This document shows positions 32,058 through 47,325 of a DNA stretch of 64,000 nucleotides, piece after piece. The DNA is from Methanoculleus sp. 7T (lineage in GTDB: Archaea > Halobacteriota > Methanomicrobia > Methanomicrobiales > Methanoculleaceae), in contig NZ_JALPRP010000002.1 in NCBI RefSeq assembly GCF_023195915.1, forward strand, positions 186,001 through 250,000, given 5' to 3'. Within the stretch, counting starts at the first letter, position 1. Each line of letters starts with the position of its first letter. The notes below the pieces were generated by a model. That model made no database searches, was not told the DNA's origin, and saw only the letters and a list, made by a program, of their open reading frames with translations. Both the position numbers and the translations under genes were made by a program.

Positions 32058-34004
32058 ATGGAGAACCTGTATAATACGTCTCCGGCCGACCTTCTGCACG
32101 AGGTGCTGCAGGACATCGGGCCGGCCCTCGACCGCCGGTCGCAGGAGAGGCTCAAAGCCGGTATCGAATCTTTGCTCGCCGAGAACCGGGACCTCGCCGC
32201 ACGAGCCGCGCGGTCGGAGGAGGAGGTGAGCGAGGCGCTCCGGGAGAGCGAGGAGCGGTATCGTTCGTTTGTGGAGAACTTCCAGGGGATAGCGTTCCAG
32301 GCCGACCTCGCCTTTACCCCGATCTTCCTCCACGGCGCGGTCGAGGCGATCACCGGCTACACCGAAGAAGCGTTCATGAAGGGCAAGGTCCGCTGGAGCG
32401 CCATCATTCATCCCGAGGACCGGCCGGCCGTCTCCGGCCTTGCCAAGCGGGTGGCTGCGTCCGAACCGGGCGTGGTGATCGAGCGGGAGTACCGGATCGT
32501 CCGGAAGGACGGCGAGATACGGTGGATACGGGAACTGGTCCATACCGTCGAGAGGGGTCCGAGACGGGAGAGGCGGGTGCAGGGCTCGCTCTACGACGTC
32601 ACTGATTACAAGCGGGCGGAAGAAAGGCTGCGGGAGAGCGAAGCGACGGCACGCGCGCTCCTCAACGCCCCGACCGATACGATAGCCCTGCTGGATACGG
32701 CCGGCCGGCTCCTCGACGTCAACGATGCGGTGATCCGGCGGTTTTCGCGGAGCCGGGAGGAACTCATCGGCATGAACATCTCCGAAGTATTTCCCCCTAC
32801 TGTGACGGAGGTGCATGCCGCACGCCTGCGCAAGGTTGCGGAATCCGGAGCTCCCGTCCGGTTCGAAGAGGTGTGGGAGGGGCGGTGGTACGACACCGTC
32901 CTCTACCCGGTCAGGGATGCGCATGGCGCCGTCACCCGGATCGCGGTCATCGCGAGGGATATCACCGGTATGAAGCAGGCGGAGGACGCCCTGCGAAGGC
33001 GGACGCACGACCTGGACGAACGGGTAAAAGAACTCTCGTGCCTGTATGCGATATCCCGCATCGTCGAGCAGCCGGGGGTATCGCTCGACCGTATCCTCCA
33101 AGAGGCCGCCCTGGCGCTCCCGCAGGGCTGGCAGTATCCTGACGACACCGTCGTCCGAATAACCGTACACGGGCGCAAATTTGAGACTGAAGGGTTCCGC
33201 GAGACGCCGTGGCGGCAGGTGTCTCCGGTCCTTGTCGACAGGAACCCGGTCGGCATGGTGGAGGTCCGCTATCTCCACAGGAGACCCGAGGAGGACGAGG
33301 GGCCGTTCCTCCGGGAGGAGCGGTCGCTGCTCGATACCGTCGCCAGCCGCCTTGGTGAAGCGATCGAGCGCCTTCAAGCCGTGGAGAACCTCCGGAGGAG
33401 CGAGGAGAAGTTCCGGGAGATTGCTCAGCGGAGTTTCGATATGATCTACACCTGCTACCATGAGGGCGGAATCGCCTATATCTCACCCGCCGTGATCCGG
33501 ATCCTCGGCTATACTCCTGCCGAACTCATCGGTTCCCGGTGCCGCGACTTCGTCAGTTCGTCGTCTCTCCCCGCATGGGAGGAGGGGCAGAAGAAGATAG
33601 CCCGGGGCGAACCGGTCGAGGGGCTTGAGATCGAGTTCTACCGCAAAGACGGGTCCGCGGCGTTTGTCGAACTGAACGAGTCCCCGATCGTCCGCGAGCA
33701 AGCGGTGATTGGAGTTCATGTGGTCGGCAGGGATATCACCGAGCGGAAACAGTACGAGCGCCTCAGGCAACAAGCGTTCGAGCAGATCGAGCGGAACATC
33801 GAGCAGTTCGCGGTTCTTGGGGACCACATCCGCCAGCCTCTCCAGGTGATCCTCGGCACGGCCGATCTCTCCGTCGAGGGAGCGGCTACGGCAAAGATCC
33901 GGGAGCAGGTCGACCGGATCAACGGCTATATCAGGGAACTCGACCGGGGCTGGATCGAGTCGAGGCAGGTCAGGGAGTTCCTCCGGAAGCATGAGTTGGC
34001 CTGA
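32058..34004 (+). CDS. Multi-PAS/GAF sensor protein without kinase ATPase domain
   Basis: The 648-residue protein begins with a short helical segment, then PAS 1 (about 70-190), PAS 2 (about 195-310), a GAF-like domain (about 330-450) and PAS 3 (about 455-580). Each PAS domain ends in a typical DITxxKxxE linker. The C-terminal 75 residues (GDHIRQPLQVILGTADL, QVDRINGYIRELDRGWIESRQVREFL) look like a histidine-kinase dimerisation helix pair with a histidine, but the protein ends before any ATP-binding domain. It may be phosphorylated by another kinase or signal by contact. GGGAGG precedes the ATG. Confidence 0.8.
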   Translation: MENLYNTSPADLLHEVLQDIGPALDRRSQERLKAGIESLLAENRDLAARAARSEEEVSEALRESEERYRSFVENFQGIAFQADLAFTPIFLHGAVEAITGYTEEAFMKGKVRWSAIIHPEDRPAVSGLAKRVAASEPGVVIEREYRIVRKDGEIRWIRELVHTVERGPRRERRVQGSLYDVTDYKRAEERLRESEATARALLNAPTDTIALLDTAGRLLDVNDAVIRRFSRSREELIGMNISEVFPPTVTEVHAARLRKVAESGAPVRFEEVWEGRWYDTVLYPVRDAHGAVTRIAVIARDITGMKQAEDALRRRTHDLDERVKELSCLYAISRIVEQPGVSLDRILQEAALALPQGWQYPDDTVVRITVHGRKFETEGFRETPWRQVSPVLVDRNPVGMVEVRYLHRRPEEDEGPFLREERSLLDTVASRLGEAIERLQAVENLRRSEEKFREIAQRSFDMIYTCYHEGGIAYISPAVIRILGYTPAELIGSRCRDFVSSSSLPAWEEGQKKIARGEPVEGLEIEFYRKDGSAAFVELNESPIVREQAVIGVHVVGRDITERKQYERLRQQAFEQIERNIEQFAVLGDHIRQPLQVILGTADLSVEGAATAKIREQVDRINGYIRELDRGWIESRQVREFLRKHELA

Positions 34005-34175: not shown

Positions 34176-34847
34176 ATGGGACCGAAATCCCCGGACCACC
34201 TGGACTCGGCCGCATCTTCTTCCCGCATCTCTGATCTGGAAGAGGCGCTGCTGGCTGTCGACTCGGTGCGAGCGGCCAGGATCCTTCGAGACGCGTGCGC
34301 TGCGAGTTCCCCCGTCTCCTGCATAGAGGCCTTGGTCATCCCTGCCCTTGAGGAGATCGGGAGAGGCTGGGAGCAGGGGCGGGTTGCCCTTTCGCAGGTC
34401 TATATGAGCGGGCGGATCTGTGAGGAGGTCGTCAACACGATGCTCCCTCCGGGCTGCCCTGATCGTGTATCTCAACCGAAGATGGCGATAGCGGTCCTCG
34501 AGGACCACCATACCCTGGGAAAGCGGATCCTCCTTGCCGTGCTCCGGGCGGGCGGCTATGAGGTGACTGATTACGGCTCGGGGGTGACGGTCGACGAGCT
34601 CGTCGAGAGCGTGATCAGGGACGGGACCGAGATCCTGCTCATATCCACGCTCATGCTCCCCGCAGCGCTCAGGGCAAAGGAGGCGATCGCCCGCATCAAA
34701 GAGGCGATGCCGGAGACCCGGGTGATCGTCGGTGGAGCGCCGTTCAGGTTCGACTCGAACCTCTGGAGAGAGGCCGGGGCCGATGCCGTGGGCCGCTCGG
34801 CATCGGATACCCTTGCGACCGTGCGGGCGATGGCGGGGGCCGTATGA
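34176..34847 (+). CDS. Corrinoid (cobalamin-binding) protein, MtaC-like
   Basis: The 223-residue protein has the helical cap domain of methyltransferase corrinoid proteins (ISDLEEALLAVDS to ICEEVVNTMLPP, about 18-92). A B12-binding Rossmann domain follows with DHHTLG (Asp110, His112 as lower cobalt ligand, Gly115), STLMLPA and GGAPF. The frame opens earlier, but AATATAAG upstream and the domain boundary favour this ATG. Its stop overlaps the next start (ATGA). Such proteins carry methyl groups between two methyltransferases; no first methyltransferase (MtaB, MtmB type) is in the window. Confidence 0.85.
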   Translation: MGPKSPDHLDSAASSSRISDLEEALLAVDSVRAARILRDACAASSPVSCIEALVIPALEEIGRGWEQGRVALSQVYMSGRICEEVVNTMLPPGCPDRVSQPKMAIAVLEDHHTLGKRILLAVLRAGGYEVTDYGSGVTVDELVESVIRDGTEILLISTLMLPAALRAKEAIARIKEAMPETRVIVGGAPFRFDSNLWREAGADAVGRSASDTLATVRAMAGAV

Positions 34848-35893
34848 CCCGGGAGATGACGCCGGCGGAGAGGACGGCCGTCACGATGGGGTTTGAGGAA
34901 CCCGACCGCGTCCCGCTCTTCCTGCTCTTCACCATCTACGGGGCGAAGGAACTCGGGCTCTCCATCCGGGAGTACTTCTCGAAACCTGAGTACGTCGCCG
35001 CAGGCCAGATGCGTCTCCTGAAGAAGTTCGGCGGCGACTGCCTCAACCCCTTCTGCTACGCGGCGGCCGAGGTCGAGGCATGGGGCGGGGAGGTGATCTT
35101 CTCGGTGGACGGCCCGCCCAATGCCGGCCGGCCGCCTATCCGGAGGCCCGAAGAGATTGAATCTCTCGAGGTGCCGCTCGTCGAGGAGAGTCCGAGCCTT
35201 CTCTTCGGGCTCCGGACGATCGAACTGCTGAAGCGGGAGGTCGGCGACGACGTGCCCATCATGGGATCGGCGATATCCCCGTTCTCCCTCCCGATACTCC
35301 AGATGGGTTTTGCTGCGTATATCGAACTCCTCTACGGCGAACCCGACCTCTTCTGGACGCTGATGAAGAAGAACGAGGAGTTCTGCGTCCGGTGGGCGAA
35401 CGCCCAACTCGAAGCCGGCGCAACCGCCGTCGGCTACGCCGACCCCCTTGCCTCGCCCGATATGATACCCCGGGACCTCTATCGCCGGACCGGGTTTATC
35501 GTTGCAAAACGCACCATATCCCGGATAGAGGGCGGGGTATCGACCGGCCTTGCTTCTGCAAGGGCTCTCCCCGTCATCGACGACGTGGCCGAGACCGGCA
35601 GCATCGGCATCGGCGTCAGCACCTTTGACGATCTCGCCGCCGTAAAACGGCAGTGCGCGGGCAGGCTCACCGTACTCGGGAACCTCAACGCCATCGAGAT
35701 GTGCCGGTGGACGCCCGCACAGGCTGAAGCCGAGGTGAAGAAGGCGATCGCAGCCGCAGGTCCGGGCGGGGGGTTCGTCCTCTCGGACAACCACGGCGAG
35801 ATCCCCTTGCAGGTGCCCGAGAGCGTTCTCCTGGCGATCTCGGCCGCCGTGCGGAAGTGGGGCAGATATCCGCTTGACCGGGTCTCCGTATGA
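34844..35893 (+). CDS. Uroporphyrinogen decarboxylase-fold protein (MtaA/MtbA-like, zinc motif missing)
   Basis: The 349-residue protein has the UroD fold pattern, including FEEPDRVPLF near the start, a GGDCLNPF segment and GSAISPFSLPILQMGF in the middle. Methylcobamide:CoM methyltransferases of this fold bind zinc through H-x-C and a late Cys. Here the H-x-C-G position reads VSTGLA (about 233-237), and the late motif is LSDNHGEIP with no Cys. Binding of a methylcorrinoid is likely from its partner gene, but classical zinc-thiolate CoM methylation is doubtful. It is translationally coupled on both sides by ATGA overlaps. Confidence 0.8.
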   Translation: MTREMTPAERTAVTMGFEEPDRVPLFLLFTIYGAKELGLSIREYFSKPEYVAAGQMRLLKKFGGDCLNPFCYAAAEVEAWGGEVIFSVDGPPNAGRPPIRRPEEIESLEVPLVEESPSLLFGLRTIELLKREVGDDVPIMGSAISPFSLPILQMGFAAYIELLYGEPDLFWTLMKKNEEFCVRWANAQLEAGATAVGYADPLASPDMIPRDLYRRTGFIVAKRTISRIEGGVSTGLASARALPVIDDVAETGSIGIGVSTFDDLAAVKRQCAGRLTVLGNLNAIEMCRWTPAQAEAEVKKAIAAAGPGGGFVLSDNHGEIPLQVPESVLLAISAAVRKWGRYPLDRVSV

Positions 35894-37668
35894 CGAGAAT
35901 GTTCGGCGTCCTCTGCTGCGAGAATCTGGCCCGAGAACTGGCGGCGGTGGTTGCCGCCGGGGAGTTTCAGGGCGTCCTCACGAGAACGTTCCATATCGGC
36001 TGCGGCGGGAAGCGTGTGCGGTGGGGAGACGGGATCGAGGCTCCTTTCCTTGACATGCGGGAGACCTGTGACCGGATCTGCATCCTTGGGTGCGGGGCGG
36101 GCATCGAGCCCCCCGCTCTGCCGGGGCCTGCTCCCGTCGTGGTGACTCCCGACCTTATGCGGGGCGTCCTCCTTCCTGAGCCCCTCTTTGATGCCTGCGT
36201 CCGGGAGGGGGCGCTCATGGTCATCCCGGGCATCCTCTCGCGGTGGAAGGAACATGTTGCAGCCCTCGGTTTTGCGGAAGAAGTGCCGACGGAGTTCTTC
36301 CGGGAGTCGGTCAAAAAGATCGTGCTCATCGACACGGGCGTAGACCCTGAAAGTCCCCGGACTCTTGCAAAACTCGGCGAAGAACTCCGGATCCCCACGG
36401 AGCGGGTTCCTATCGGCATTGAGCCGCTCCGCCGGTATATCGGCCTCCAGTATCTCCAGTGGCGTATGGATGCCGAGAAAAAGGCTTTCCGGGAATCCAT
36501 CGCTGCGGCGAACCGGAGATCCGCAGATTACGCGATGATCATCGATATCCTCGGCAGGATCGCGGCGCTCCAGAGCGAGGGGACGGTGGTGGAGGAGATG
36601 CTCAACCTCTTTACCGCCCTCTTCGGCCCTGCCCGGATCGGTTTTGCGCCCGTCGATGAGGGGAAGATGGGCAGGGTCGTCGGCCGCCCGCCCGGCTACT
36701 ACGATGCGCCGGAGCAGGGAAGGAAGTTCTTCGCGGAGGAGGGGCGGTCTATCGGACGGCGCGGCGATGACTGGTTCTCGATAGAGATCCGGCATGAAGG
36801 CTCCCTGGTCGGCGTTCTCCTGCTTGAGGGGCTCGCCCTGCCGGAGCGGATCGATGATTACCTCGGCATCAGCCGGCTCGTGGCAGGGGTCTGCGGGCTC
36901 GCTATTGATAACGCCCGGATGTACCGGAGGCTCCAAGAGGTCGTGAAGGAGCGCGATGAAGAGATCGGGGAACGGATGCGGGTAGAGAAGGCGCTGCGTG
37001 AGGCAAACAAAAAACTCAACACCCTCTCGTCCATCACCCGGCACGATATACTGAATCAACTGGCGGCGCTGCTTGGGTATCTTGAGATAACGCAGATGGA
37101 CCTCGCGGCGGGGCGCCTGCCCGCGGACCCGACCCTCATCCGGTATGTCGAAAACGAACTGCAGGCCGCAAGGACGATCCAGCGGCAGGTTGAGTTCACC
37201 CGGTTTTATCAGGATATCGGCGTGAAGGAAGCGGAGTGGCACGATGCAGAAACCCTGATCCGGAAGGCGGCAGAAGACCTCCCGCTCTCCGGGGTCAGGG
37301 TGGACGTCGGGGTTGCGGGGCTCCGGGTGTATGCCGATCCCCTGATCGGGAAGGTCTTCTACAACCTCATGGAGAACTCGGTCCGGCATGGAGGGGATAT
37401 CTCCCGGATATCGTTTCTCTCATCCCTGGCCGACGGCGGCCTCGTGATCGTCTATACCGATGACGGCGGGGGTATCCCGGCCGCAGATAAGGAGAGGATC
37501 TTCCGCAAGGGTTTCGGCAAGAATACGGGGCTTGGGCTGTTTCTCACCCGTGAGATCCTCGCGATCACCGGCATCGCCATCCGAGAGACCGGCGTTGAGG
37601 GAGAGGGCGCCCGGTTTGAGATCTTCGTCCCGGAAGGGGCGTATAGGTTTGCGGAAGGGGATACCTGA
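35890..37668 (+). CDS. Histidine kinase with unrecognised cysteine-rich N-terminal domain
   Basis: The 592-residue soluble protein has an N-terminal domain of about 190 residues that I cannot name. It contains Cys9, Cys10, Cys38 (HIGCGG), Cys60, Cys64 and Cys68. A GAF-like domain follows (about 215-340), then a short coiled coil, a DHp helix with an intact H-box (ITRHDILNQLAALLGY) and an HATPase domain (NLMENSVRHGG, DDGGGIP, GKNTGLGLFL). Its start overlaps the UroD-like gene stop, so sensor, corrinoid protein and methyltransferase-like protein are made together. The cysteines could hold a metal or corrinoid. No response regulator is adjacent. Confidence 0.85.
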   Translation: MTRMFGVLCCENLARELAAVVAAGEFQGVLTRTFHIGCGGKRVRWGDGIEAPFLDMRETCDRICILGCGAGIEPPALPGPAPVVVTPDLMRGVLLPEPLFDACVREGALMVIPGILSRWKEHVAALGFAEEVPTEFFRESVKKIVLIDTGVDPESPRTLAKLGEELRIPTERVPIGIEPLRRYIGLQYLQWRMDAEKKAFRESIAAANRRSADYAMIIDILGRIAALQSEGTVVEEMLNLFTALFGPARIGFAPVDEGKMGRVVGRPPGYYDAPEQGRKFFAEEGRSIGRRGDDWFSIEIRHEGSLVGVLLLEGLALPERIDDYLGISRLVAGVCGLAIDNARMYRRLQEVVKERDEEIGERMRVEKALREANKKLNTLSSITRHDILNQLAALLGYLEITQMDLAAGRLPADPTLIRYVENELQAARTIQRQVEFTRFYQDIGVKEAEWHDAETLIRKAAEDLPLSGVRVDVGVAGLRVYADPLIGKVFYNLMENSVRHGGDISRISFLSSLADGGLVIVYTDDGGGIPAADKERIFRKGFGKNTGLGLFLTREILAITGIAIRETGVEGEGARFEIFVPEGAYRFAEGDT

Positions 37669-38924: not shown

Positions 38925-39410
38925 ATGCTGGGTGAGATCCTCCATATCCTGGCCGCAGCGGTTATCGCTTGGATCCTCTTCGTAATGGTCGATATTTTCT
39001 TCAAATTACCGGAAGCGGGGGGCGTCAGCGGAGCGTCGGCCATCGCGCGGGATATCGAAGCCGGCGGCGGCGCCCTCTCCGGCGGGACCATGATGGGGAA
39101 CATCGTCTGCTCCCCCGACGCCTCGGCGGGGACGCTCCTTGCCGCCTGCGGCGTCTACGTCGCCGGCATCCCCGGCGGGCTCGTTGCAGCCGTGCTCGTC
39201 TTCATCGGCAACCGCATCTGCCACGACCCCGGCTACGCGGGGACCACCGGAGCGGTTCTCGCCACGTTCGTCGTCTACGGGTTCACCCAGGTCGGGTTCG
39301 CCGCCACCGACTTCATCGCAGGCATGGTGATCGCCATCCTCACCATCCAAGGACTGTCGCACGCCCACGCAAGCAGGCTTCTTGCGCGGCTCTGGAGGGT
39401 CAGGCAGTGA
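38925..39410 (+). CDS. ehaB: Energy-converting hydrogenase A, subunit EhaB
   Basis: The 161-residue integral membrane protein has an N-terminal helix and about four more hydrophobic segments (AGTLLAACGVYVAGIPGG, AAVLVFIGNRICHD, TGAVLATFVVYGFTQ, FIAGMVIAILTIQGL). Its place at the head of the gene run, size and the GNIVCSPDASAG loop fit EhaB. I see no separate EhaA gene in front of it. It contributes to the ion-translocating membrane arm of the hydrogenase. No clear Shine-Dalgarno sequence precedes the ATG. Confidence 0.72.
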   Translation: MLGEILHILAAAVIAWILFVMVDIFFKLPEAGGVSGASAIARDIEAGGGALSGGTMMGNIVCSPDASAGTLLAACGVYVAGIPGGLVAAVLVFIGNRICHDPGYAGTTGAVLATFVVYGFTQVGFAATDFIAGMVIAILTIQGLSHAHASRLLARLWRVRQ

Positions 39411-39649
39411 TCGCACTCTACATCGTAGCCGCGATCGCGGTCTTTGCCGTCGTCAGGGCCACCATCGAGAAGAACACCGGCAGGAAACTCCCTTACGTGA
39501 ACGTCATGAACTTCGCCGTCGCCGGGGCGCTCGTCCTGCTGCTCGACCACCCGCTCTCCCTCGTTGCGGCGGCAGCCTACTTCGTCGGCTCCACGCTCGA
39601 GGCAAACGCGATTGCAAGCACCTACGCGGGGGGTGTCCGCCGTGGATGA
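39407..39649 (+). CDS. ehaC: Energy-converting hydrogenase A, subunit EhaC
   Basis: This 80-residue membrane protein starts with GTG that overlaps the EhaB stop (GTGA). It has three hydrophobic segments (ALYIVAAIAVFAVV, NFAVAGALVLLLDHP, LVAAAAYFVGSTLEANAI). Small proteins with this layout occupy the EhaC position. The role is structural within the membrane arm, by analogy with small Mrp/complex I subunits. The assignment rests on size and order. Confidence 0.68.
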   Translation: MIALYIVAAIAVFAVVRATIEKNTGRKLPYVNVMNFAVAGALVLLLDHPLSLVAAAAYFVGSTLEANAIASTYAGGVRRG

Positions 39650-39878
39650 CCTCCTCGTGGTCCTCTTTGCGGCCGTAGCGCTCATCGGCGCGGTGAGCGC
39701 CCACCTCCAGCAGGACCGCTTCAACAAGCTGATCGCGGTCGGGATCATCTTCGGCGGCGTCGTGCCGTTCATCGTAGACCGCGGCTACCTAGACGTCGCC
39801 ATCCTCATCAGCCTGATCATCCCCATCACGACGATCATCATGCTGCTGATCTGCAGGAGGGAACCTCATGACGCCTGA
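39642..39878 (+). CDS. ehaD: Energy-converting hydrogenase A, subunit EhaD
   Basis: This membrane protein of about 78 residues has three helices (LLVVLFAAVALIGAVSAHL, FNKLIAVGIIFGGVVPFIV, VAILISLIIPITTIIMLLI). I chose the GTG with GGGGTG six bases upstream; a GTG 9 bases earlier is an alternative. The start lies inside the EhaC end. It matches the small hydrophobic subunit in the EhaD slot, related in topology to MnhC/NuoK-like proteins. Confidence 0.68.
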   Translation: MDDLLVVLFAAVALIGAVSAHLQQDRFNKLIAVGIIFGGVVPFIVDRGYLDVAILISLIIPITTIIMLLICRREPHDA

Positions 39879-40104
39879 GTTCATCCTCGGATGCATCATC
39901 CTCATCATCGGCGTGATCGCAGCCGGGTTCCCGCGCCCGAAGACCTACCTCTCACGGCTGATAAGCCTCGAGATCCCCGGGTTCGGGCTCCTGCTTATCA
40001 TGCTCGCCTACGATGAGATGCTCGCCCTGCTGACGTTCATCGGCGTCACGGCAATCTCGACCTTCGTCCTCGTGCGGGTCATCGAACGGAGGGGTCCGGA
40101 ATGA
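39868..40104 (+). CDS. ehaE: Energy-converting hydrogenase A, subunit EhaE
   Basis: The 78-residue membrane protein has helices at FILGCIILIIGVIAAGF, IPGFGLLLIMLAYDEM and LALLTFIGVTAISTFVLV. The acidic YDEM between two helices is unusual for so small a membrane subunit and could take part in ion transfer. It overlaps its upstream neighbour by 11 bases and the next gene by 4. Confidence 0.68.
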   Translation: MTPEFILGCIILIIGVIAAGFPRPKTYLSRLISLEIPGFGLLLIMLAYDEMLALLTFIGVTAISTFVLVRVIERRGPE

Positions 40105-40565
40105 AGGCGAACCGGTCGATCATCACCCGGATATCGGCGACGATGTCCCGTGTCGAGAACCTCACCGGGCTCTACGCCTTCCTCCTCGTGGCTGTCGCCG
40201 TACTCGGCCTCGTCACCCTGCCGTTCATCACCTACCACGACGACCAGCTCTACCCGAAGACCATCAACCCGGATAGCACCCTGAATCCCTACGACCGGGG
40301 CGGCGTGCCGTTCGGGACCACCCCGGTGAAGGCGCAGTACCCCGAGAACTCTCCCTACGCCGGTTACGTGACCACCTACCTGACGCCGGTCAGCCAGTGG
40401 CTCGCCGACACCACCTACCATATGGGGACGACGATCGTCTCGCACCCCGGCGGCATCATCGACGAGATCCTCTACAACACCCGTGGCCTCGATACGGTCG
40501 TCGAGACGAGCATCCTCTTTGTAGCGTTTGCGATCGCAAGTTACCTCTTCCGGAGGGATTCCTGA
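40101..40565 (+). CDS. ehaF: Energy-converting hydrogenase A, subunit EhaF
   Basis: The 154-residue protein has one N-terminal helix (TGLYAFLLVAVAVLGLVTLPFI), a long extracytoplasmic loop with many Asp, Pro and Tyr residues, and a C-terminal helix (VETSILFVAFAIASYLF). This hairpin-with-loop topology and length fit EhaF. It is coupled to EhaE by an ATGA overlap and to EhaG by TGATG. Confidence 0.7.
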   Translation: MKANRSIITRISATMSRVENLTGLYAFLLVAVAVLGLVTLPFITYHDDQLYPKTINPDSTLNPYDRGGVPFGTTPVKAQYPENSPYAGYVTTYLTPVSQWLADTTYHMGTTIVSHPGGIIDEILYNTRGLDTVVETSILFVAFAIASYLFRRDS

Positions 40566-41167
40566 TGGATATGACCTACACCGTCGGTCTCTCGGTCGTT
40601 GCGCTCGCGCTCGTCATCGGGTTTACGGCCATCGTCCGTGAGCGCGACGACCTTCACCGGATCCTCCTCACCGACCTTGCTGAGGTCGTCTCGCTCGTCC
40701 TGATCGCGCTCGTCGCCACCGACCTTGCCGAGGCGCTCATCCTACCCGGCCTCGTCGTCGGGATATCGGAACTGATGGCGGTCTCCGAGGTGTATATCGC
40801 GAAAGAGGGGCTCCAGGCGCCGCCTGCGGAGCCTGCGTTCCACATCGAGGTGATGGACAGCGCGCCCGGCATCCTCGCCCTGATCCTCGTCGCCTACGGG
40901 ATCGTCCTCTCCGGGTTCACCGGGGGCGCGGTCGCCGCGGTCGGTGCGGTCTTCTACTTCATGTGCCGGGGTCATGCCGAGCAGTTCGAGTTGATCGAGA
41001 CCGTGAGCGGCTACGCGTGGGCGATCTGGATCGGGTCGTTCTTCATCTTCATGTTCCTCCCGCAGTACTGGTTCTTCGCAGTGATGATGGCAGGCGGCGC
41101 GATCCTCCTCAAAGTGATGGCAAAGATGTCCCTCGTCGGGACGATGCGGGGTGGTTCCGATGTTTAA
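40565..41167 (+). CDS. ehaG: Energy-converting hydrogenase A, subunit EhaG
   Basis: The 200-residue membrane protein has about six helices (VGLSVVALALVIGFTAIV, LVLIALVATDLAEALILPG, ALILVAYGIVLSGFTGGAV, IWIGSFFIFMFLPQYWFF among them). The AEVVSLVLIALVATDLAEA region has acidic residues in the bilayer, as expected for an ion-conducting subunit. The ATG overlaps the EhaF stop by one base. Its position and length fit EhaG. Confidence 0.72.
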   Translation: MDMTYTVGLSVVALALVIGFTAIVRERDDLHRILLTDLAEVVSLVLIALVATDLAEALILPGLVVGISELMAVSEVYIAKEGLQAPPAEPAFHIEVMDSAPGILALILVAYGIVLSGFTGGAVAAVGAVFYFMCRGHAEQFELIETVSGYAWAIWIGSFFIFMFLPQYWFFAVMMAGGAILLKVMAKMSLVGTMRGGSDV

Positions 41168-41828
41168 TCTCCCCACGGCAAACATCGGCGGGCAGGAGCT
41201 CTTCGTGCTGGAGTTCGGCGACATCGTCAACTACTTCAGCCCCTACACCGCGGCACTCTTCATCTTCGCCCTCATCTTCACGATCCTCGCCATCGTGAGC
41301 AGACCCGAGCGGCAGGTGGATATAGCGTTCGGCGGCGATGCCTACTACGCAAAGGAGGTCGATCCGGGGCTGCTGCGGTTCCAGCGCTTCATGGCGATCG
41401 CCTGCGGCCTTGCCACGCTCGGAGCGATGGTGAGCGGGGACATCTTCAACTTCACCCTCTTTGCATCGCTCGTGGGGATCACGAACATCGGCATCGTCGC
41501 CGCATACAGGAACAGGCACGTCCTGAACGCCGCGTTCCAGTACGGCATCGTCGCGATGCTCGCCACCGTCCCGCTCTTCGGGGGGGCGGCGATCATCCTC
41601 GCCAGCACCGGCACGCTGAGCATGTGGGAACTCTTCACCGACGCGGTGGCGGTCCCGGTCATCGCGAAGGCGTTCCTGGTCATCGGCGTCATGGGGGAGG
41701 GCATGGCGCCGTTCTACGTGGCAAAGGCCGAGATCACGAGGGCGCAGGGAGCCCCGTTCATCCTGATGGTTCACGTCAGCTCGCTCCTCCTCTTCCTGCG
41801 CGTGATAGAGATCGTCATATCGATGTGA
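41160..41828 (+). CDS. ehaH: Energy-converting hydrogenase A, subunit EhaH (NuoL/MrpD-like fragment)
   Basis: The 222-residue membrane protein resembles part of an antiporter-like complex I subunit: a helix-loop with FMAIACGLATLGAMVSGDIFNF, YGIVAMLATVPLFGGAAII and the conserved lysine-bearing VIAKAFLVIGVMGEGMAPF and VAKAEI segment. It is much shorter than NuoL, as known for EhaH. I chose the ATG with GGGGTGG five bases upstream; GTG nine bases earlier is possible. It is the likely H+/Na+-pumping core. Confidence 0.75.
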   Translation: MFNLPTANIGGQELFVLEFGDIVNYFSPYTAALFIFALIFTILAIVSRPERQVDIAFGGDAYYAKEVDPGLLRFQRFMAIACGLATLGAMVSGDIFNFTLFASLVGITNIGIVAAYRNRHVLNAAFQYGIVAMLATVPLFGGAAIILASTGTLSMWELFTDAVAVPVIAKAFLVIGVMGEGMAPFYVAKAEITRAQGAPFILMVHVSSLLLFLRVIEIVISM

Positions 41829-41834
41829 TGGGGT

Positions 41835-42038
41835 ATGAAGAAACAGACTGCACTGATCACCGGACTTGCGGCGGGGGGCGTCTCGGTAGCGGCCGGGCTC
41901 CTTGCGGCCGGCGGCTACCTCCCGGTCTGGGCCGCGGGACTCCTTACCATCGTCGCATTCCCCGTCTTTGTCATCTTCATCGCACTGTGGTGGAACGCGA
42001 AATCCGGAGACGAGGACATCCCGTTCATAGGATACTGA
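41835..42038 (+). CDS. ehaI: Energy-converting hydrogenase A, subunit EhaI
   Basis: This 67-residue protein has two helices (ALITGLAAGGVSVAAGLLAAGG and WAAGLLTIVAFPVFVIFIALWW) and a short acidic tail (KSGDEDIPFIGY). It lies 6 bases after EhaH and 1 base before EhaJ. Size, topology and order match EhaI; there is no catalytic feature. Confidence 0.68.
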   Translation: MKKQTALITGLAAGGVSVAAGLLAAGGYLPVWAAGLLTIVAFPVFVIFIALWWNAKSGDEDIPFIGY

Positions 42039-42039
42039 T

Positions 42040-42885
42040 ATGATCGCATACCTGCTCTTTGCAACCTTCGTCGGCCTGCTCTTCCACGGCATCCATAGGA
42101 AAGTCATCGCCAGAGTCCAGGGACGGCCCGGGCCGCCGATCTGGCAGGAGATCCTTCATACGCTGAAGTTCTCCTTCAAAGAGACCTGGATACCGAAGAC
42201 TGCCAGCCAGACGCTCTTCGTCGCGGTCGTCTTCGTGGCGATCGGCATCTGGAGCGCAGCCCTCTACTTGCTCCTCTCCGGGGGGAGCCTCCTGCTCCTC
42301 TTCGGGATCTACCTCCTCCACAAGATCGTAGAGCACGGGATGGGGCTCTCGTCGGGCTCCCCATACGGCAAGTTCGGGGCTATCAGGTCGGTCATATCGG
42401 CGGCGTCGGAGCTGCCGCTCCTCGTCACCGTCGTCGCGATCTACTTCTTCACCCGCTCGCTCTCGATCGCGGATATCGCGGCCTACCAACAGGTGCACGG
42501 GCCGCTTCTCATCGTAGCGCTCCCGGCAGCCGCGGCGATGTACCTCGTCATCCTCTCCAAGATGCACTACGGCCCGTTCTCGATCATCGAGGCGAAGGAG
42601 ATCGTGAGCGGGAACATGACCGAACACTTCGGGGTCTGGCGCGCCGGGCTCGAGGTTGGGTTCGCCCTCAAGACCTACGTGCTCCTCTACGCGTTCGTCC
42701 TCCTCTTCATCGGCCAGCTGCCGCTTGCCCTGACGCTGCTCCTGATGCTCTTGGTCCTCGTCTCGCTCTCGTTCGTCTGCGCGGTCACCCCCATGCTCTC
42801 GCCCTACGACACCGTGACGGTGCAGAGTCTCGTGACAGGCGCACTCGTCGTCTACATCATTGTCCTTGGGGTGGTCATGGGATGA
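42040..42885 (+). CDS. ehaJ: Energy-converting hydrogenase A, subunit EhaJ (NuoH-like)
   Basis: The 281-residue membrane protein with about eight helices has NuoH/EchB landmarks. GIHRKVIARVQGRPGPP follows helix 1, and MHYGPFSIIEAKEIVSG carries the conserved acidic loop that contacts the hydrogenase small subunit. This subunit couples electron transfer in EhaN/EhaO to the ion-moving arm. It ends inside the start of the next gene (ATGA). Confidence 0.85.
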   Translation: MIAYLLFATFVGLLFHGIHRKVIARVQGRPGPPIWQEILHTLKFSFKETWIPKTASQTLFVAVVFVAIGIWSAALYLLLSGGSLLLLFGIYLLHKIVEHGMGLSSGSPYGKFGAIRSVISAASELPLLVTVVAIYFFTRSLSIADIAAYQQVHGPLLIVALPAAAAMYLVILSKMHYGPFSIIEAKEIVSGNMTEHFGVWRAGLEVGFALKTYVLLYAFVLLFIGQLPLALTLLLMLLVLVSLSFVCAVTPMLSPYDTVTVQSLVTGALVVYIIVLGVVMG

Positions 42886-43133
42886 ACGCGATACGTCTTC
42901 TGCTTACGGTAGGAGCGGCCTTCTATGCGGCGGTATTCCTCGCTCAGGTCGCCCAGAACGGGAGCGTGGCCGACCAGGCCCTGGCAGGCGTCGTCCTGCT
43001 CGCCGTGGCGACGGCGCTCACCTGGATGCACGACGAACTCACCTTGAAGCGCTACGAGATGGGGCTGCTCTGGGTGATGGTGCTCGGGTTCCTTGCCTAT
43101 GCAATGGCACACGCCTCGGGGGTGCTGTCGTGA
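42882..43133 (+). CDS. ehaL: Energy-converting hydrogenase A, subunit EhaL (or EhaK)
   Basis: The 83-residue membrane protein has three helices (LLLTVGAAFYAAVFLAQVA, LAGVVLLAVATALTW, GLLWVMVLGFLAYAMAHA). Only one such small gene lies between EhaJ and EhaM, so either EhaK or EhaL is absent from this run. I favour EhaL because it adjoins EhaM. Overlaps with both neighbours are 4 bases. Confidence 0.6.
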   Translation: MNAIRLLLTVGAAFYAAVFLAQVAQNGSVADQALAGVVLLAVATALTWMHDELTLKRYEMGLLWVMVLGFLAYAMAHASGVLS

Positions 43134-43513
43134 AGTACCTCTACGAGAAAGACCTCCGGCCGATGAAGTACACCATCCTCACGAGCACGAAGCATGACCT
43201 GACGGTTCGAGAGATCGCCCGGCGCCTCGGTATGGCCGACGCAAAACTCCGGATGGCGATGATCCGGCGGCTCGATATGTCCCTGCTTGAGAACCTCGAG
43301 TCCCGGTGGGAGATGGGGCAAAAGTATGGGGATTCGGACGACCCGGTGGCGGAAAAACTCGGGTGCGAACTCTTCACCCGGTTTATACCACTCGTTGATA
43401 CAGAGACGATGCAGACAATTTACAACGACACAAAAACGATGATCGACGACGGACCACTCGACGAGGCGCTAGAGCAAGGAAGAGCACGGATACGGGAGGC
43501 GGTCCTCTCATGA
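43130..43513 (+). CDS. ehaM: Energy-converting hydrogenase A, subunit EhaM (DUF1959)
   Basis: The 127-residue soluble helical protein starts at GTG overlapping the previous stop. It has YEKDLRPMKYTILTSTKHDLTVREIARRLG and a C-terminal acidic/Arg tail, the DUF1959 pattern of EhaM, for which only a structure is known. It has no membrane segment or cofactor motif, so it is probably a cytosolic peripheral subunit or assembly factor. Confidence 0.8.
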   Translation: MKYLYEKDLRPMKYTILTSTKHDLTVREIARRLGMADAKLRMAMIRRLDMSLLENLESRWEMGQKYGDSDDPVAEKLGCELFTRFIPLVDTETMQTIYNDTKTMIDDGPLDEALEQGRARIREAVLS

Positions 43514-43965
43514 AGATCCTCCAGGATATCAAGAACGCAGTGCGGTCGAGGTCGATCCATGTCTGTTACGTCGACGTCGGGTCATGCAACGGCTGCGACA
43601 TCGAGGTGCTCGCCTGCCTTGCGCCGCGCTACGACATCGAGCAGTATGGGATCTACGTCCACAACAACCCCCGTGAGGCCGACGTCCTTCTGGTCATCGG
43701 GTCTGTGACACCGCAGTGGGTGGACAAACTCCGCGATATCTGGGACAAGATTCCGGAGCCGAAGGTGGCCGTCGCCATCGGGAACTGCCCGATATCGGGG
43801 TGCGTCTATGCCCGGAGGGGTACCTTGACGAGCCCGCCTGTTGAGAAGTACATACCCATCGCCGCACAGGTGCCGGGCTGCCCGCCCCGCCCAACAGAGA
43901 TACTCAACGCCATACTCTCGGTCGCACCGCTGATATTCAAAGACTACGAGGAGAAACAGTCATGA
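43510..43965 (+). CDS. ehaN: Energy-converting hydrogenase A small subunit EhaN
   Basis: This 151-residue NuoB/EchC-like subunit has GSCNGCDIEVLAC at residues 25-36, then GNCPISGC and VPGCPPRP, giving the four cysteines of the proximal [4Fe-4S] cluster. It receives electrons from the NiFe site in EhaO and passes them to EhaP. Overlaps of 4 bases on both sides keep its stoichiometry tied to EhaM and EhaO. Confidence 0.88.
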   Translation: MKILQDIKNAVRSRSIHVCYVDVGSCNGCDIEVLACLAPRYDIEQYGIYVHNNPREADVLLVIGSVTPQWVDKLRDIWDKIPEPKVAVAIGNCPISGCVYARRGTLTSPPVEKYIPIAAQVPGCPPRPTEILNAILSVAPLIFKDYEEKQS

Positions 43966-45050
43966 AGAAGACCGTCGACGTATCCATTCCGCTCGGTCCG
44001 ATGCACCCCTGCTGGAAAGAGCCCGTCCGCATCAAGTGCGAGACGGCGGGCGAACGGGTGATCAGGACCGAGGTTGAACTCGGGTACATGAAGAAGGGGA
44101 TCGAGCGGATCATGCGGGGCCGCCCCTGGCAGGAGGTGATGTTCCTTGCCGAGCGCGTCTGCGGTATCTGCTCGGTCATCCACAACATGGTCTTCATCGA
44201 GACGATGGAGGAGATCAGCGGCATCTCTGTCCCGCCGCGGGCCGCTTACCTCCGGGTCATCGTCAATGAACTCGACCGAATAGCAAGCCACATCCTCGCG
44301 AACTTCTCCTACTGCTACACGATCGAGCACGAGACGCTCGCGATGTACCTCTTGAATACCCGGGAGACGGTGCTCGACAACCTCGAACGAATCACGGGCT
44401 CGCGGATCAACACAGCCTACATGATCCCGGGCGGGGTCAGGTTCGACCTCCTGCCTGAGGACGCCGCGGCGATGCTTGCCGACCTCGCGAAGGTGGAGGA
44501 TGAGATGAAGCGGCATACCCGGATCTTCGAGACCGGCCCCCTGATCGCCCTCCGGAGCAAGGGGATTGGGGTCATGACCCGCGAGGAAGCAATTTTGGCC
44601 CACACCGTCGGCCCCACGGCCCGGGCAAGCGGTGTCACGGACTGCGACCTGCGTCTCCGCCACCCGACCTACCAGGCGCTCGGCTTTACGCAGATAACGA
44701 GGACCGAGGGCGACAACTTCGCCCGGATCATGGTCAGGTTCCAGGAGATCTTCCAGAGCATCGACCTGATCCGGAAGTGCGTAGAGACCCTCCCCGACGG
44801 GCCTATCCGGGGCGGCGGCCTCTGCAAGGCGGGCGAGGCCTCGCACAGCGGCGAAGCCCCTCGGGGCGAGTTGATCTACTCCATAAAGACCGACGACTAC
44901 GGCAGGGTGCTCGACATCGCGATCCGGACGCCCTCGATCATGAATGTCGAGGCCTGTTCCCACTCGATGATCAAAGACGCCGCGTCGATCGCCGACGTGA
45001 CATCGACGTTCATCAGCAGCGACCCCTGTATCGCGTGCAATGAGAGGTAA
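43962..45050 (+). CDS. ehaO: Energy-converting hydrogenase A large subunit EhaO (NiFe site)
   Basis: This 362-residue NuoD-like catalytic subunit has both NiFe-binding motifs: RVCGIC (Cys67, Cys70) and, at the extreme C-terminus, DPCIAC (Cys356, Cys359). It ends three residues after the last Cys, so there is no processed C-terminal extension, as in other group 4 hydrogenases. It oxidises H2 for ferredoxin reduction. Confidence 0.92.
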   Translation: MKKTVDVSIPLGPMHPCWKEPVRIKCETAGERVIRTEVELGYMKKGIERIMRGRPWQEVMFLAERVCGICSVIHNMVFIETMEEISGISVPPRAAYLRVIVNELDRIASHILANFSYCYTIEHETLAMYLLNTRETVLDNLERITGSRINTAYMIPGGVRFDLLPEDAAAMLADLAKVEDEMKRHTRIFETGPLIALRSKGIGVMTREEAILAHTVGPTARASGVTDCDLRLRHPTYQALGFTQITRTEGDNFARIMVRFQEIFQSIDLIRKCVETLPDGPIRGGGLCKAGEASHSGEAPRGELIYSIKTDDYGRVLDIAIRTPSIMNVEACSHSMIKDAASIADVTSTFISSDPCIACNER

Positions 45051-45054
45051 GGAG

Positions 45055-45660
45055 ATGCGATCAATCATCTACTACGTGCAGGAGTTCCTCAGGCCGGAAT
45101 GGCTGAAGAAGTTCTTCTTCGCAAAGACCGCACCGCTCTCCACCCCCCCTTACTTCAAGGACTACCCGTTCCAGACGGAGAAAGAGTGCACGGGGTGCTT
45201 TTCCTGTATGATGATCTGCCCCGCGCCCGAGGCCATCGCGGTCCTCCGCCGGAAGGACCAGTGGGTCCCTGAGGTCTACCCGGGTCACTGCATCAGGTGC
45301 GGCCTCTGTGTCGAGGCGTGCCCGGAAGGCGTCCTTTCAAGCGGGCGGATTCTCGATGTCACCCGGCGCGATGGGACTGCGCTCTCCTCGTGGTACCACC
45401 TCGAGGTCGACGACACCCTCTGCATGCGGTGCGGGAACTGTTGTGTCTCCTGCCCGATCAACAGGCAGGAGGACCCGCAGCTCGCAGCGACGGGGACGTC
45501 CGCGAGCGACGAGGTCATCATGCGGATCGAGGGCGGCCGGGTGCGGATACTCCACGAGGAGAAGTGCACCGGGTGCAAGACCTGCGAGACCCACTGCCCG
45601 AACCGCGCAATCAGGGTCGCCCGCATGGTGGAAGGGGTGCAGAAGGAGGTGGAGGCGTGA
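45055..45660 (+). CDS. ehaP: Polyferredoxin subunit with four [4Fe-4S] clusters (EhaP-like)
   Basis: The 201-residue protein has four C-x2-C-x2-C-x3-C motifs beginning near residues 45, 79, 123 and 171 (CTGCFSC, CIRCGLC, CMRCGNC, CTGCKTC). It has fewer clusters than the six described for EhaP in Methanothermobacter, and no second polyferredoxin follows. I chose the second ATG, seven bases after GAGGT; the first ATG, 15 bases earlier, is possible. It bridges Eha and FwdD, and its stop overlaps the FwdD start. Confidence 0.8.
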   Translation: MRSIIYYVQEFLRPEWLKKFFFAKTAPLSTPPYFKDYPFQTEKECTGCFSCMMICPAPEAIAVLRRKDQWVPEVYPGHCIRCGLCVEACPEGVLSSGRILDVTRRDGTALSSWYHLEVDDTLCMRCGNCCVSCPINRQEDPQLAATGTSASDEVIMRIEGGRVRILHEEKCTGCKTCETHCPNRAIRVARMVEGVQKEVEA

Positions 45661-46046
45661 CGTTTCTGATGATCACCGGACGGACGGTGAACCAAGGCGC
45701 GACCGTCGAGAACAAGACATCGGCCGGCTACGCCGAGGAGACCTCCACCTGCTTCATGCACGAGTTTGATATGCTGGAACTCGGGCTTGCCGACCAAGAC
45801 GCCGTCAGGGTGGCCGGACCCTGCGGAGAGGTCGTCATGCGGGCGGTTGCGTCGGACGAGGTGGAGATGGGCACCGTCTTCGTCCCCTACGGCCCCTACG
45901 CAAACCACATCATCGCTGCCGATACCCACTCCACCGGGATGCCCGACTTCAAGTCGCACGAGGTGGAGATCGAACCGACGGACGAAGAACCGAAGACTGT
46001 TCACGAACTGATGGAAGAACTGGGAGGGCTTGCTTATGATCGTTAA
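45657..46046 (+). CDS. fwdD: Formylmethanofuran dehydrogenase subunit D
   Basis: The 129-residue protein starts with GTG overlapping the polyferredoxin stop. It has the molybdopterin-dinucleotide-binding fold pattern LITGRTVNQGATVENK-like start, then FDMLELGLADQDAVRVAGP and VFVPYGPYANHII. With FwdB it forms the split Mo/W-pterin formate dehydrogenase core that reduces CO2 to formate inside the complex. It overlaps FwdB by 11 bases. Confidence 0.9.
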   Translation: MTFLMITGRTVNQGATVENKTSAGYAEETSTCFMHEFDMLELGLADQDAVRVAGPCGEVVMRAVASDEVEMGTVFVPYGPYANHIIAADTHSTGMPDFKSHEVEIEPTDEEPKTVHELMEELGGLAYDR

Positions 46047-47325
46047 GGACGTGGTCTGCCCCTTCTGCGGATGCCTCTGTGACGATATCGAGGTGGACGT
46101 CGCAGAGAACCGGGTAGTCGCCGTCACCAACGCCTGCGAGCTCGGCACGAAGAAACTCATGGGCGAGAAGAGGATGAAGAACCCGATCCTGCGCGATGGG
46201 GATACATGGAAGGATATCACCTACGACGAAGCGATCCGCTACACCGTCGATATGCTCACGCATGCCGAGCGTCCGCTCCTCTACGGGTGGAGCGGCACTC
46301 ACGGAGAGGCCCAGTGCGTGGGGGTGCACATGGCCGAACTCGTGCGCGGCGTGATCGACAACACGTCTTCGGTCTGCCACGGGCCGTCCATCCTTGCCAT
46401 CCAAGAGGTCGGGCACCCGGGGTGCACGCTCGGTGTGGTGAAGAACCGGGCCGACCTCGTGATCTACTGGGGCGCGAACCCAATCGACGCCCACCCCCGC
46501 CACCTCTCCCGGTACACGCGCTACGCTGACGGGTTCTTCCTCGAGAACGCCTTCCGCGACCGGAAGGTGATCGTCATGGACGTTCGGAAGACCGAGACCG
46601 CGAACATCGCCGACGAGTTCGTGCAGATCAAACCCGGCGGGGACTACGCAGTCCTCTCGGCGCTCCGGGCTATCGTCCGGGGGAAGGAGGATATAGTCCC
46701 GCGGACGGTCGCGGGCGTCACCCGCGAGCAGCTCATCCGGGTGGTCGACCTCTGCAAAGCCGCGAAGTTCGGTGCGGTCTACTTCGGGCTCGGGCTCACG
46801 ATGACCCGGGGGAAGTACAAGAACGTCAGAAACGCCATCGAACTCGTCTCAGAGTTGAACCGGCACACGAAGTTTACCATCTCGGCGATGCGTGGCCACT
46901 ACAACGTCTACGGCTCGAACGAAGTGAATACCTGGATGACCGGCTATCCCTTCGGGATTGACTTCTCCCGGGGGATCGCCTTCTACAACCCCGGAGAGAC
47001 CACGGCCGTGGATATCCTGGCTAGGAAGGAGTGCGATGCGGCGCTGATCGTCGGGAGCGACCCGGCCGCCCACTTCCCGCGGTCCTGCCTCAAGCACCTC
47101 GCCGATATCCCGGTAGTCCAACTCGATCCCTACCCGAACGCCACCACGGCGTTCTGCAACGTCCAGATCCCGGTGGCGGTGACCGGCATCGATGCGGAGG
47201 GGACGGCTTATCGGATGGACGGGGTGCCCATCCGGACCCGGAAAGTCCTCTCCACCAGTTACCCCTCCGACGAGGAAGTCCTCTCCCGGATCTACAGAGA
47301 GATGCAGGAGGCGCAAGCGGTATGA
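46036..47325 (+). CDS. fwdB: Formylmethanofuran dehydrogenase subunit B
   Basis: This 429-residue catalytic subunit has a [4Fe-4S] motif at the N-terminus (CPFCGCLCDD, Cys8/11/15, with Cys34) and the metal ligand SSVCHGPS (Cys114). The ligand is a normal cysteine codon, not selenocysteine. Sequence alone does not tell tungsten from molybdenum. The ATG has GGGAGGG seven bases upstream. The stop overlaps the FwdA start (ATGA). Confidence 0.92.
   Translation: MIVKDVVCPFCGCLCDDIEVDVAENRVVAVTNACELGTKKLMGEKRMKNPILRDGDTWKDITYDEAIRYTVDMLTHAERPLLYGWSGTHGEAQCVGVHMAELVRGVIDNTSSVCHGPSILAIQEVGHPGCTLGVVKNRADLVIYWGANPIDAHPRHLSRYTRYADGFFLENAFRDRKVIVMDVRKTETANIADEFVQIKPGGDYAVLSALRAIVRGKEDIVPRTVAGVTREQLIRVVDLCKAAKFGAVYFGLGLTMTRGKYKNVRNAIELVSELNRHTKFTISAMRGHYNVYGSNEVNTWMTGYPFGIDFSRGIAFYNPGETTAVDILARKECDAALIVGSDPAAHFPRSCLKHLADIPVVQLDPYPNATTAFCNVQIPVAVTGIDAEGTAYRMDGVPIRTRKVLSTSYPSDEEVLSRIYREMQEAQAV

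Follow-up and report, generated by a model that had tools for sequence, protein, structure and literature searches.

A corrinoid protein, a UroD-like protein and a DUF1638-type kinase form a cross-domain gene trio that is probably a B12-based sensor rather than a methane-making pathway

The window analysed here is a 64,000-nucleotide stretch of the Methanoculleus sp. 7T genome. At 34176–37668 its forward strand carries three genes, whose products are a corrinoid protein (34176–34847), a UroD/MtaA-fold protein (34844–35893) and a histidine kinase (35890–37668); each gene overlaps the next by ATGA. These coordinates and both overlaps agree with the original prediction, which was also right in describing the surroundings as those of an H2/CO2 methanogen, with a hydrogenase-like operon and FwdA lying downstream of the trio. 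The features are as follows.

32058..34004 (+), PAS-PAS-GAF-PAS protein upstream of the trio, with a DHp-like end (DHIRQPLQ, H590)
34176..34847 (+), corrinoid (cobalamin-binding) carrier protein, 223 aa, PF02607 cap and PF02310
34503..34520 (+), D-x-H-x-x-G motif (D110, H112, G115), predicted lower axial cobalt ligand site
34844..35893 (+), UroD/MtaA-fold protein, 349 aa, methylcobamide:CoM methyltransferase-like without the zinc site
35549..35557 (+), L236-A237-S238, replacing the H-x-C zinc ligands of MtaA
35786..35806 (+), D-N-H317-G-E319-I-P motif, with H317 at the place of the third zinc ligand of MtaA, a Cys
35890..37668 (+), sensor histidine kinase, 592 aa, assigned as DUF1638–GAF–DHp–HATPase_c
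35890..36459 (+), domain assigned as divergent DUF1638, residues 1–190, with conserved C10, C38 and C68
36490..36969 (+), GAF domain, residues 201–360, AlphaFold2 pLDDT 84
37042..37044 (+), predicted phospho-acceptor His385 (RHDILNQ), in a SPOB_a/DHp-like region (residues 374–405)
37345..37635 (+), HATPase_c catalytic domain, residues 486–582, PF02518 49.6 bits, with N, G1 and G2 motifs

The corrinoid protein resembles MtaC and MtbC in combining a PF02607 cap (47.8 bits) with a PF02310 domain (71 bits) that carries D-x-H-x-x-G, S-x-L and GG. Its score against TIGR02370 is 82.8 bits, under the cut-off of 215, and its nearest solved structure is a trimethylamine corrinoid protein. The B12 ligand motif (DHHTLG) had been called intact; D110, H112 and G115 are indeed present, and the D, H, L and G of E-D-H-H-T-L-G are invariant among 88 relatives. 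Cobalamin binding is a prediction from motif and domain content. CarH repressors share the same cap and B12 domains and score in searches, which raises the alternative of a B12 light sensor whose kinase would respond to photolysis of adenosylcobalamin. The cap motif of CarH is W-x9-E-H; the corrinoid protein has W65-x9-V-Y, and the residues conserved in place of E-H are Q74 and Y76. CarH and cobalamin-binding GGDEF proteins (PDB 5c8d, 8j2y) do use a B12 domain as signal input, as proposed for the trio, and 8j2y shows B12 domains joined to GGDEF proteins, but both hold the B12 domain and the output in one protein, whereas the trio has a separate carrier. CarH systems also lack a methyltransferase-fold partner, and many trio carriers come from sediments, so that a light sensor of this type seems extremely unlikely.

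The second protein belongs to the UroD fold family (PF01208, 163 bits), with PDB 4ay7 as its top solved match (phmmer E 8.5e-16). It shares this fold, and a corrinoid protein as partner, with the methylcobamide methyltransferases MtaA, MtbA and CmuA, yet it falls under every family cut-off (TIGR01463, 91.6 bits against 235.4; MtaA family, 75.8 against 400) and its carriers are mostly non-methanogens. A role in heme biosynthesis (HemE) was rejected, the TIGR01464 score being 34 bits where the cut-off is 303; the protein is the sole UroD-family member in its genome. The earlier statement that the zinc H-x-C and the late Cys are missing proved correct, L-x-S and His317 standing in their places. 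Relatives carry L/M/F-x-S/A where MtaA-type enzymes carry H-x-C, the S238 position being S in 90 of 94, A in 4 and Cys in none, and not one of the 94 retains the zinc site that CoM methyltransferases have. They possess a motif of their own, D-N-H-G-E-I-P, whose H, G, E, I and P are invariant (94/94). Loss of the thiol-activating zinc site, together with a new invariant site (H317/E319, with S238), suggests that this protein probably does not methylate CoM.

The third protein carries a phospho-acceptor His and a HATPase_c domain with N and G motifs, and kinase activity is predicted on this basis; a PHROGs search gave generic kinase matches only. The model of its GAF domain matches GAF domains in Foldseek (best E 1.2e-5, probability 1.00). 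Its N-terminal domain finds no Pfam match even at E 10, and a DUF1638 search of the window's own genome is likewise negative because this copy is too divergent. PF07796 (DUF1638) does match orthologous kinases: one Methanomicrobiales orthologue reaches 28 bits against the gathering cut-off of 27, and relatives at further loci also pass it, for example with 42.7 (L128) and 47 bits (L163). HHalign of the domain against 31 DUF1638 proteins gives E 9e-8, with decoys far lower. As the window copy lies below Pfam detection, its assignment as a divergent DUF1638 domain is based on orthology and profile comparison. The original prediction of a cysteine-rich histidine kinase holds, whereas its unrecognised domain with six cysteines is assigned here to DUF1638 and has seven (9, 10, 38, 60, 64, 68 and 103), of which only C10 (57/60), C38 (57/59) and C68 (53/60) are widely conserved. 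Prediction of the domain's structure, proposed earlier as a check, yielded an AlphaFold2 model with pLDDT 87; Foldseek against the PDB returned nothing at E below 1e-3, leaving the domain without a solved relative. Stand-alone DUF1638 proteins, homologous to the kinase domain along its entire length, are tied to corrinoid proteins: one is required with a corrinoid methionine synthase in Phaeobacter, and the family is genetically linked to corrinoid proteins and RamA-type activases, with no established biochemical role (PMC5764234). The window domain differs in being fused to GAF and to an output, here a kinase and in relatives also GGDEF, and its kinase alignment does not show the DDC motif found in the stand-alone members compared.

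When about 85,000 species genomes were searched with only the UroD-like protein as query, 346 relatives were retrieved, and the loci of the best 80 were examined, a pattern search that favours close relatives. These 80 come from 11 phyla, covering archaea and at least 10 bacterial phyla, and 71 of the 73 loci that could be tested preserve the corrinoid–UroD–sensor set. The original prediction had proposed looking up the three-gene order across Methanomicrobiales, where it is kept as a unit in 25 of 27 genomes possessing the kinase domain. Carriers include methanogens, aerobic methanotrophs, sulfur oxidisers, sulfate reducers and Chloroflexi. Conservation of gene order across domains of life indicates that the trio is more than chance, and distances of its three proteins correlate (r 0.65–0.79; none of 2000 permutations reached such values). 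Gene order would likewise be preserved for a metabolic enzyme pair encoded together with its regulator.

The third gene shows which part of the trio is constant. In 57 distant relatives it encodes DUF1638 (PF07796) in 45, HATPase in 38, HisKA in 30, a receiver in 9 and GGDEF in 7; the output half swaps between histidine kinase, hybrid kinase and diguanylate cyclase, with the corrinoid, UroD and DUF1638-GAF input remaining the same. The only recurrent neighbours are two-component (receiver or kinase) proteins.

All three protein families are known from methyl-transfer systems, so an ordinary corrinoid methyl-transfer pathway, whose adjoining kinase only regulates the enzymes, has to be weighed. 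One parallel is the mec cassette of dichloromethane degraders, in which a two-component system likewise accompanies a corrinoid protein and an MtaA/CmuA-family protein; that cluster, however, is catabolic and includes MTI, MTII and a transporter, and its kinase has PocR where the trio kinase has DUF1638 (PMC9768040). MTI, MTII and a PocR kinase are absent among the 25 commonest neighbour families of the trio, nor are a second methyltransferase, an activase or a transporter among its recurrent neighbours. The window had been described as lacking an MtaB-type partner, and this extends to whole genomes: an MtaB or MttB family protein, the substrate methyltransferase of methylotrophic methanogenesis, is found in none of 12 carriers, with a positive control in Methanosarcina acetivorans. 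A dedicated substrate methyltransferase beside orthologues, which the earlier note held would make this an ordinary methyl-transfer system, was thus found neither in the 12 carriers nor among the commonest neighbours, where no corrinoid methyltransferase family occurs. The lost zinc site and a kinase input from a family tied to corrinoid proteins, rather than a substrate-binding domain, also argue against such a pathway. In its favour, the Azoarcus copy, on a plasmid, sits in a C1 island between methanol oxidation and H4MPT C1 genes; C1 genes are absent near the other 100 loci checked (80 loci and 20 of Methanomicrobiales). On balance we consider an ordinary pathway unlikely. A link of the trio to methanol oxidation was set aside as a lead only, C1 genes occurring, among the loci checked, at the Azoarcus copy alone and a methanol dehydrogenase relative in only 9 of 22 carriers.

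An incomplete mlp-type cluster (MGC) for recycling methyl-sulfur/selenium compounds would equally bring MtaA-like proteins together with a corrinoid protein, and such clusters occur in many bacteria and in some methanogens (PMC10418091). A type 1 MGC has, by definition, a Ram activase and no fewer than two Mlps next to a corrinoid gene (Kountz and Balskus, PMC10418091), and the text on mlp clusters reports no sensor protein and mentions neither a histidine kinase nor DUF1638. The window's genome has one UroD protein and a RACo-type protein on another contig, and neither a second Mlp nor a Ram activase is a recurrent trio neighbour, which makes this origin very improbable. The RACo-type protein means that reductive activation is available in the window's genome, a point against a sensory module. 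In favour of such a module, no RACo/RamA-type activase is present in three carriers whose genomes are 99% complete, unlike what a catalytic corrinoid pathway would require.

Carriers without this activase also fit a redox or oxygen sensor, in which the signal would arise when Co(I)/Co(II) or the three DUF1638 cysteines become oxidised, while the UroD-like protein would be a mere cap or ligand holder. Consistent with this, C10, C38 and C68 sit directly past three strands of the sheet in the AlphaFold2 model, and redox gradients are the habitat of many carriers (Beggiatoa relatives, Thiomargarita, cable bacteria, sulfate reducers). The H and E kept in 94 of 94 UroD-like relatives are, however, hard to explain for a mere cap, and cobalt redox chemistry alone needs no methyltransferase-fold partner; we regard a purely redox sensor as possible but rather doubtful. 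RdmS and MsmS of Methanosarcina acetivorans, methyltransferase-associated methanogen sensor kinases, are proposed heme/thiol redox sensors; they differ from the trio kinase in lacking an H-box and not being autokinases, and the available text of these reports describes no DUF1638, corrinoid or UroD partner (PMC11784639, PMC11619418).

Recurrence in archaea and at least 10 bacterial phyla suggests that the trio is probably a B12-based sensor, and not a methane-making pathway; no description of it was found among the open-access papers searched. The sensory reading of the original prediction is supported by the conserved trio, the swappable output, the two-component neighbours and the lack of a substrate methyltransferase in 12 carriers. 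The trio is not confined to methanogens but crosses domains. That the trio is a signalling module is very likely, and we put at roughly 0.7 the probability that it feeds a corrinoid-based input into phosphorelay or c-di-GMP signalling. The corrinoid protein would hold the cobamide, for which the motif is present, and the UroD-like protein would be its methyltransferase-fold partner, probably swapping an upper ligand, methyl or another, with a small molecule, or gating the ligand, rather than methylating CoM. The DUF1638-GAF part would dock onto the corrinoid protein, read its state, either whether it is methylated or whether its cobalt is Co(I) or Co(II), and relay this to the attached output: in the window a histidine kinase with no dedicated regulator adjoining, elsewhere hybrid kinases or diguanylate cyclases, as their observed domain content suggests. 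That the state of the corrinoid protein is the signal appears fairly likely; that methyl state and not redox is read is plausible, if somewhat short of an even bet. The fullest version, in which a zinc-less UroD-type methyltransferase sets the methylation state from an environmental methyl donor, DUF1638 reads it and kinases or diguanylate cyclases relay it, is more tentative still.

Corrinoid methyl transfer is known as metabolism, and B12 as signal input mainly from light-sensing repressors. If correct, the sensory reading would add a means of sensing methyl compounds or redox state that is widespread and apparently undescribed, coupled to phosphorelay or c-di-GMP; it would offer for DUF1638 a role that can be tested, the reading of corrinoid proteins, and account for annotations as "uroporphyrinogen decarboxylase family" in hundreds of genomes that are unrelated to heme. 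Were methyl state what is read, enzymatic methyl transfer would serve as a sense organ in a cross-domain signalling family.

The window has no response regulator beside the trio; at other loci receivers are the commonest neighbours. The upstream PAS-PAS-GAF-PAS protein (32058..34004) has no ATPase domain and keeps its position in four congeners; it is a possible partner of the trio.

The three genes lie where the original prediction placed them and are joined by two ATGA overlaps:

34176–34847 (+), corrinoid protein
34844–35893 (+), UroD-like protein
35890–37668 (+), histidine kinase

The first product carries the Pfam domains PF02607 and PF02310 of a corrinoid protein, the second belongs to the UroD superfamily with MtaA/CmuA methyltransferases as its nearest members, and the third is a histidine kinase with HATPase_c. 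The kinase N-terminus, which contains seven cysteines by count rather than the six first reported, had been described as unrecognised; it indeed gives zero matches in Pfam when searched alone, yet it is a divergent DUF1638 domain (PF07796), as four lines of evidence indicate. First, a blind six-frame PF07796 scan of 232 Methanomicrobiales genomes returned nine matches, four of them on the N-terminal domain of orthologous kinases (G205, 28 bits, above cut-off; G046, E 2.6e-5; G201, 3.7e-5; G015, 0.007). Second, 26 kinase domains compared with 31 stand-alone DUF1638 proteins in HHalign scored 58.3 (E 9e-8); the highest score among 60 column-shuffled decoys was 21.6, and two unrelated families scored 14.3 and 13.1. 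A broader kinase set reached E 5e-9, and in its alignment C10 falls on the N-terminal Cys of DUF1638 and the C68 region on the Y-G-L-C-G-N motif. Third, PF07796 matches the third gene in 45/57 distant relatives, many above cut-off. Fourth, the kinase domain and DUF1638 alike are associated with corrinoid proteins (PMC5764234). The AlphaFold2 model of the domain (pLDDT 87, pTM 0.83) retrieved zero solved relatives. Residues 201–360 adopt a GAF fold, and the architecture is thus DUF1638-GAF-DHp-HATPase.

Alignment of the UroD-like protein with 4ay7 and 94 relatives bore out the predicted absence of the zinc site, with L-x-S replacing H-x-C and an invariant His replacing the late Cys. The second position of H-x-C is Cys in 0/94 relatives; one position before the first residue of this motif, 78/94 have His (T-H-L-A-S) and the window's protein has Gly. 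Residues H317, G318, E319, I320 and P321 are invariant among the 94, a pattern suggesting retention of an active or binding site. A 26%-identical UroD protein at L091 (genome G196), of a family separate from the trio's, carries H-I-A-G and S-G-C-E, a zinc site whose middle Cys is gone and whose late Cys is retained.

The kinase N-terminal domain occurs in 27/232 Methanomicrobiales genomes (8 genera), and the three-gene order is kept in 25 of these, the exceptions being the congener G062 and G112, which has merely a related kinase. The G062 locus (L034, identical to record L151, Methanoculleus sp. UBA303) is without the corrinoid gene and the first 108 UroD residues (the first third), a PAS gene directly abutting residue 109; this truncation is a deletion or a misassembly. 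GTDB species genomes were scanned with the UroD alignment alone, so the trio association was not built into the search. The best 80 of 346 relatives were retained; they span 11 NCBI phyla, with 53–63% identity outside Methanomicrobiales, and carriers include Beggiatoa relatives, Methylobacter, Thiobacillus, Desulfonema, cable bacteria, Anaerolineales and Brocadia. A corrinoid gene lies directly upstream of the UroD gene at 72/77 loci, and DUF1638 and/or GAF directly 3' at 69/73 loci with enough downstream sequence; two more of the 73 (L172, L195) hold the DUF1638/GAF gene within a rearranged cluster. L172, L195 and L201 (Electrothrix and a relative) are all rearranged with a corrinoid gene after a UroD gene, and two contain a second UroD copy. 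Among the three proteins, pairwise distances are correlated (r 0.65–0.79; 0/2000 permutations as high), as expected for genes inherited or transferred jointly. In the tree, a single group with weak support, placed amid bacteria, takes in most of the Methanomicrobiales copies, the G200/G207 genus standing apart; this fits transfer between domains, whose direction it does not prove.

Output domains vary in the 57 third genes from outside Methanomicrobiales (HATPase_c 38, HisKA 30, receiver 9, GGDEF 7). Ten loci have GAF without DUF1638; L143, the sole short protein scanned from this set, gave zero Pfam matches and is followed by a large kinase-type gene. Clustering of 914 flanking frames produced one large recurrent group (40 loci), in which 28 of the 36 scanned members carry a receiver and 26 a kinase ATPase domain. 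The 92 nearer flanking frames were again richest in receiver (21) and HATPase (17) domains, and none of the 25 most frequent families, out of 121, is a corrinoid methyltransferase family. The neighbour of the corrinoid gene in one genus of Methanomicrobiales combines a receiver with a methanogen output domain:

L046, 10165–10809, receiver plus methanogen output domain 2 (PF18548), with a large kinase encoded on one side and the corrinoid protein on the other

Upstream of the window's trio, 32058–34004 encodes a PAS-PAS-GAF-PAS protein with a C-terminal DHp-like stretch (DHIRQPLQ) and without an ATPase domain. The gene holds this upstream position in four congeners, and its product could be a phospho-acceptor partner of the trio.

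Protein families, gene order, motifs, domain swaps and distribution were observed directly for the trio. By family knowledge, the corrinoid protein would bind a cobamide and the UroD-fold partner would dock on its upper face. The DUF1638 domain may read the corrinoid protein, and GAF would pass the signal to the output domain; in Phaeobacter a stand-alone DUF1638 relative is needed, with a RamA-like protein, for a corrinoid methionine synthase (PMC5764234). That signal might be methylation by a small donor via the altered UroD pocket or the cobalt redox state, and the H317–P321 invariance slightly favours methylation. The nearest systems, namely the mec cassette (PMC9768040), mlp clusters (PMC10418091), CarH-type B12 sensors and RdmS/MsmS kinases (PMC11784639), each differ from the trio in a defining feature. 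No description of the trio was found in open-access literature; its novelty is provisional, since subscription papers and preprint servers lie largely outside that coverage.

The window's genome encodes one UroD protein and four B12-binding matches, the one classified being a cap-type corrinoid protein. MttB and MtaB families were found in 0/12 carrier genomes, and were detected in the Methanosarcina acetivorans control; a methyl-transfer pathway is therefore not evident. A RACo/RamA-type protein is present in 9/12, the window's genome included, and was not found in three 99%-complete carriers, so ATP-driven reactivation is no strict companion of the trio. On Azoarcus sp. KH32C plasmid pAZKH (L207, 14772–36011), the trio has formylmethanofuran dehydrogenase/Fae genes on one side and a PQQ methanol dehydrogenase cluster on the other, C1 surroundings that possibly hint at a C1 ligand. 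In the window, 38925–49022 holds a NuoH/B/D/I-like energy-converting hydrogenase operon and, after it, the genes for formylmethanofuran dehydrogenase.
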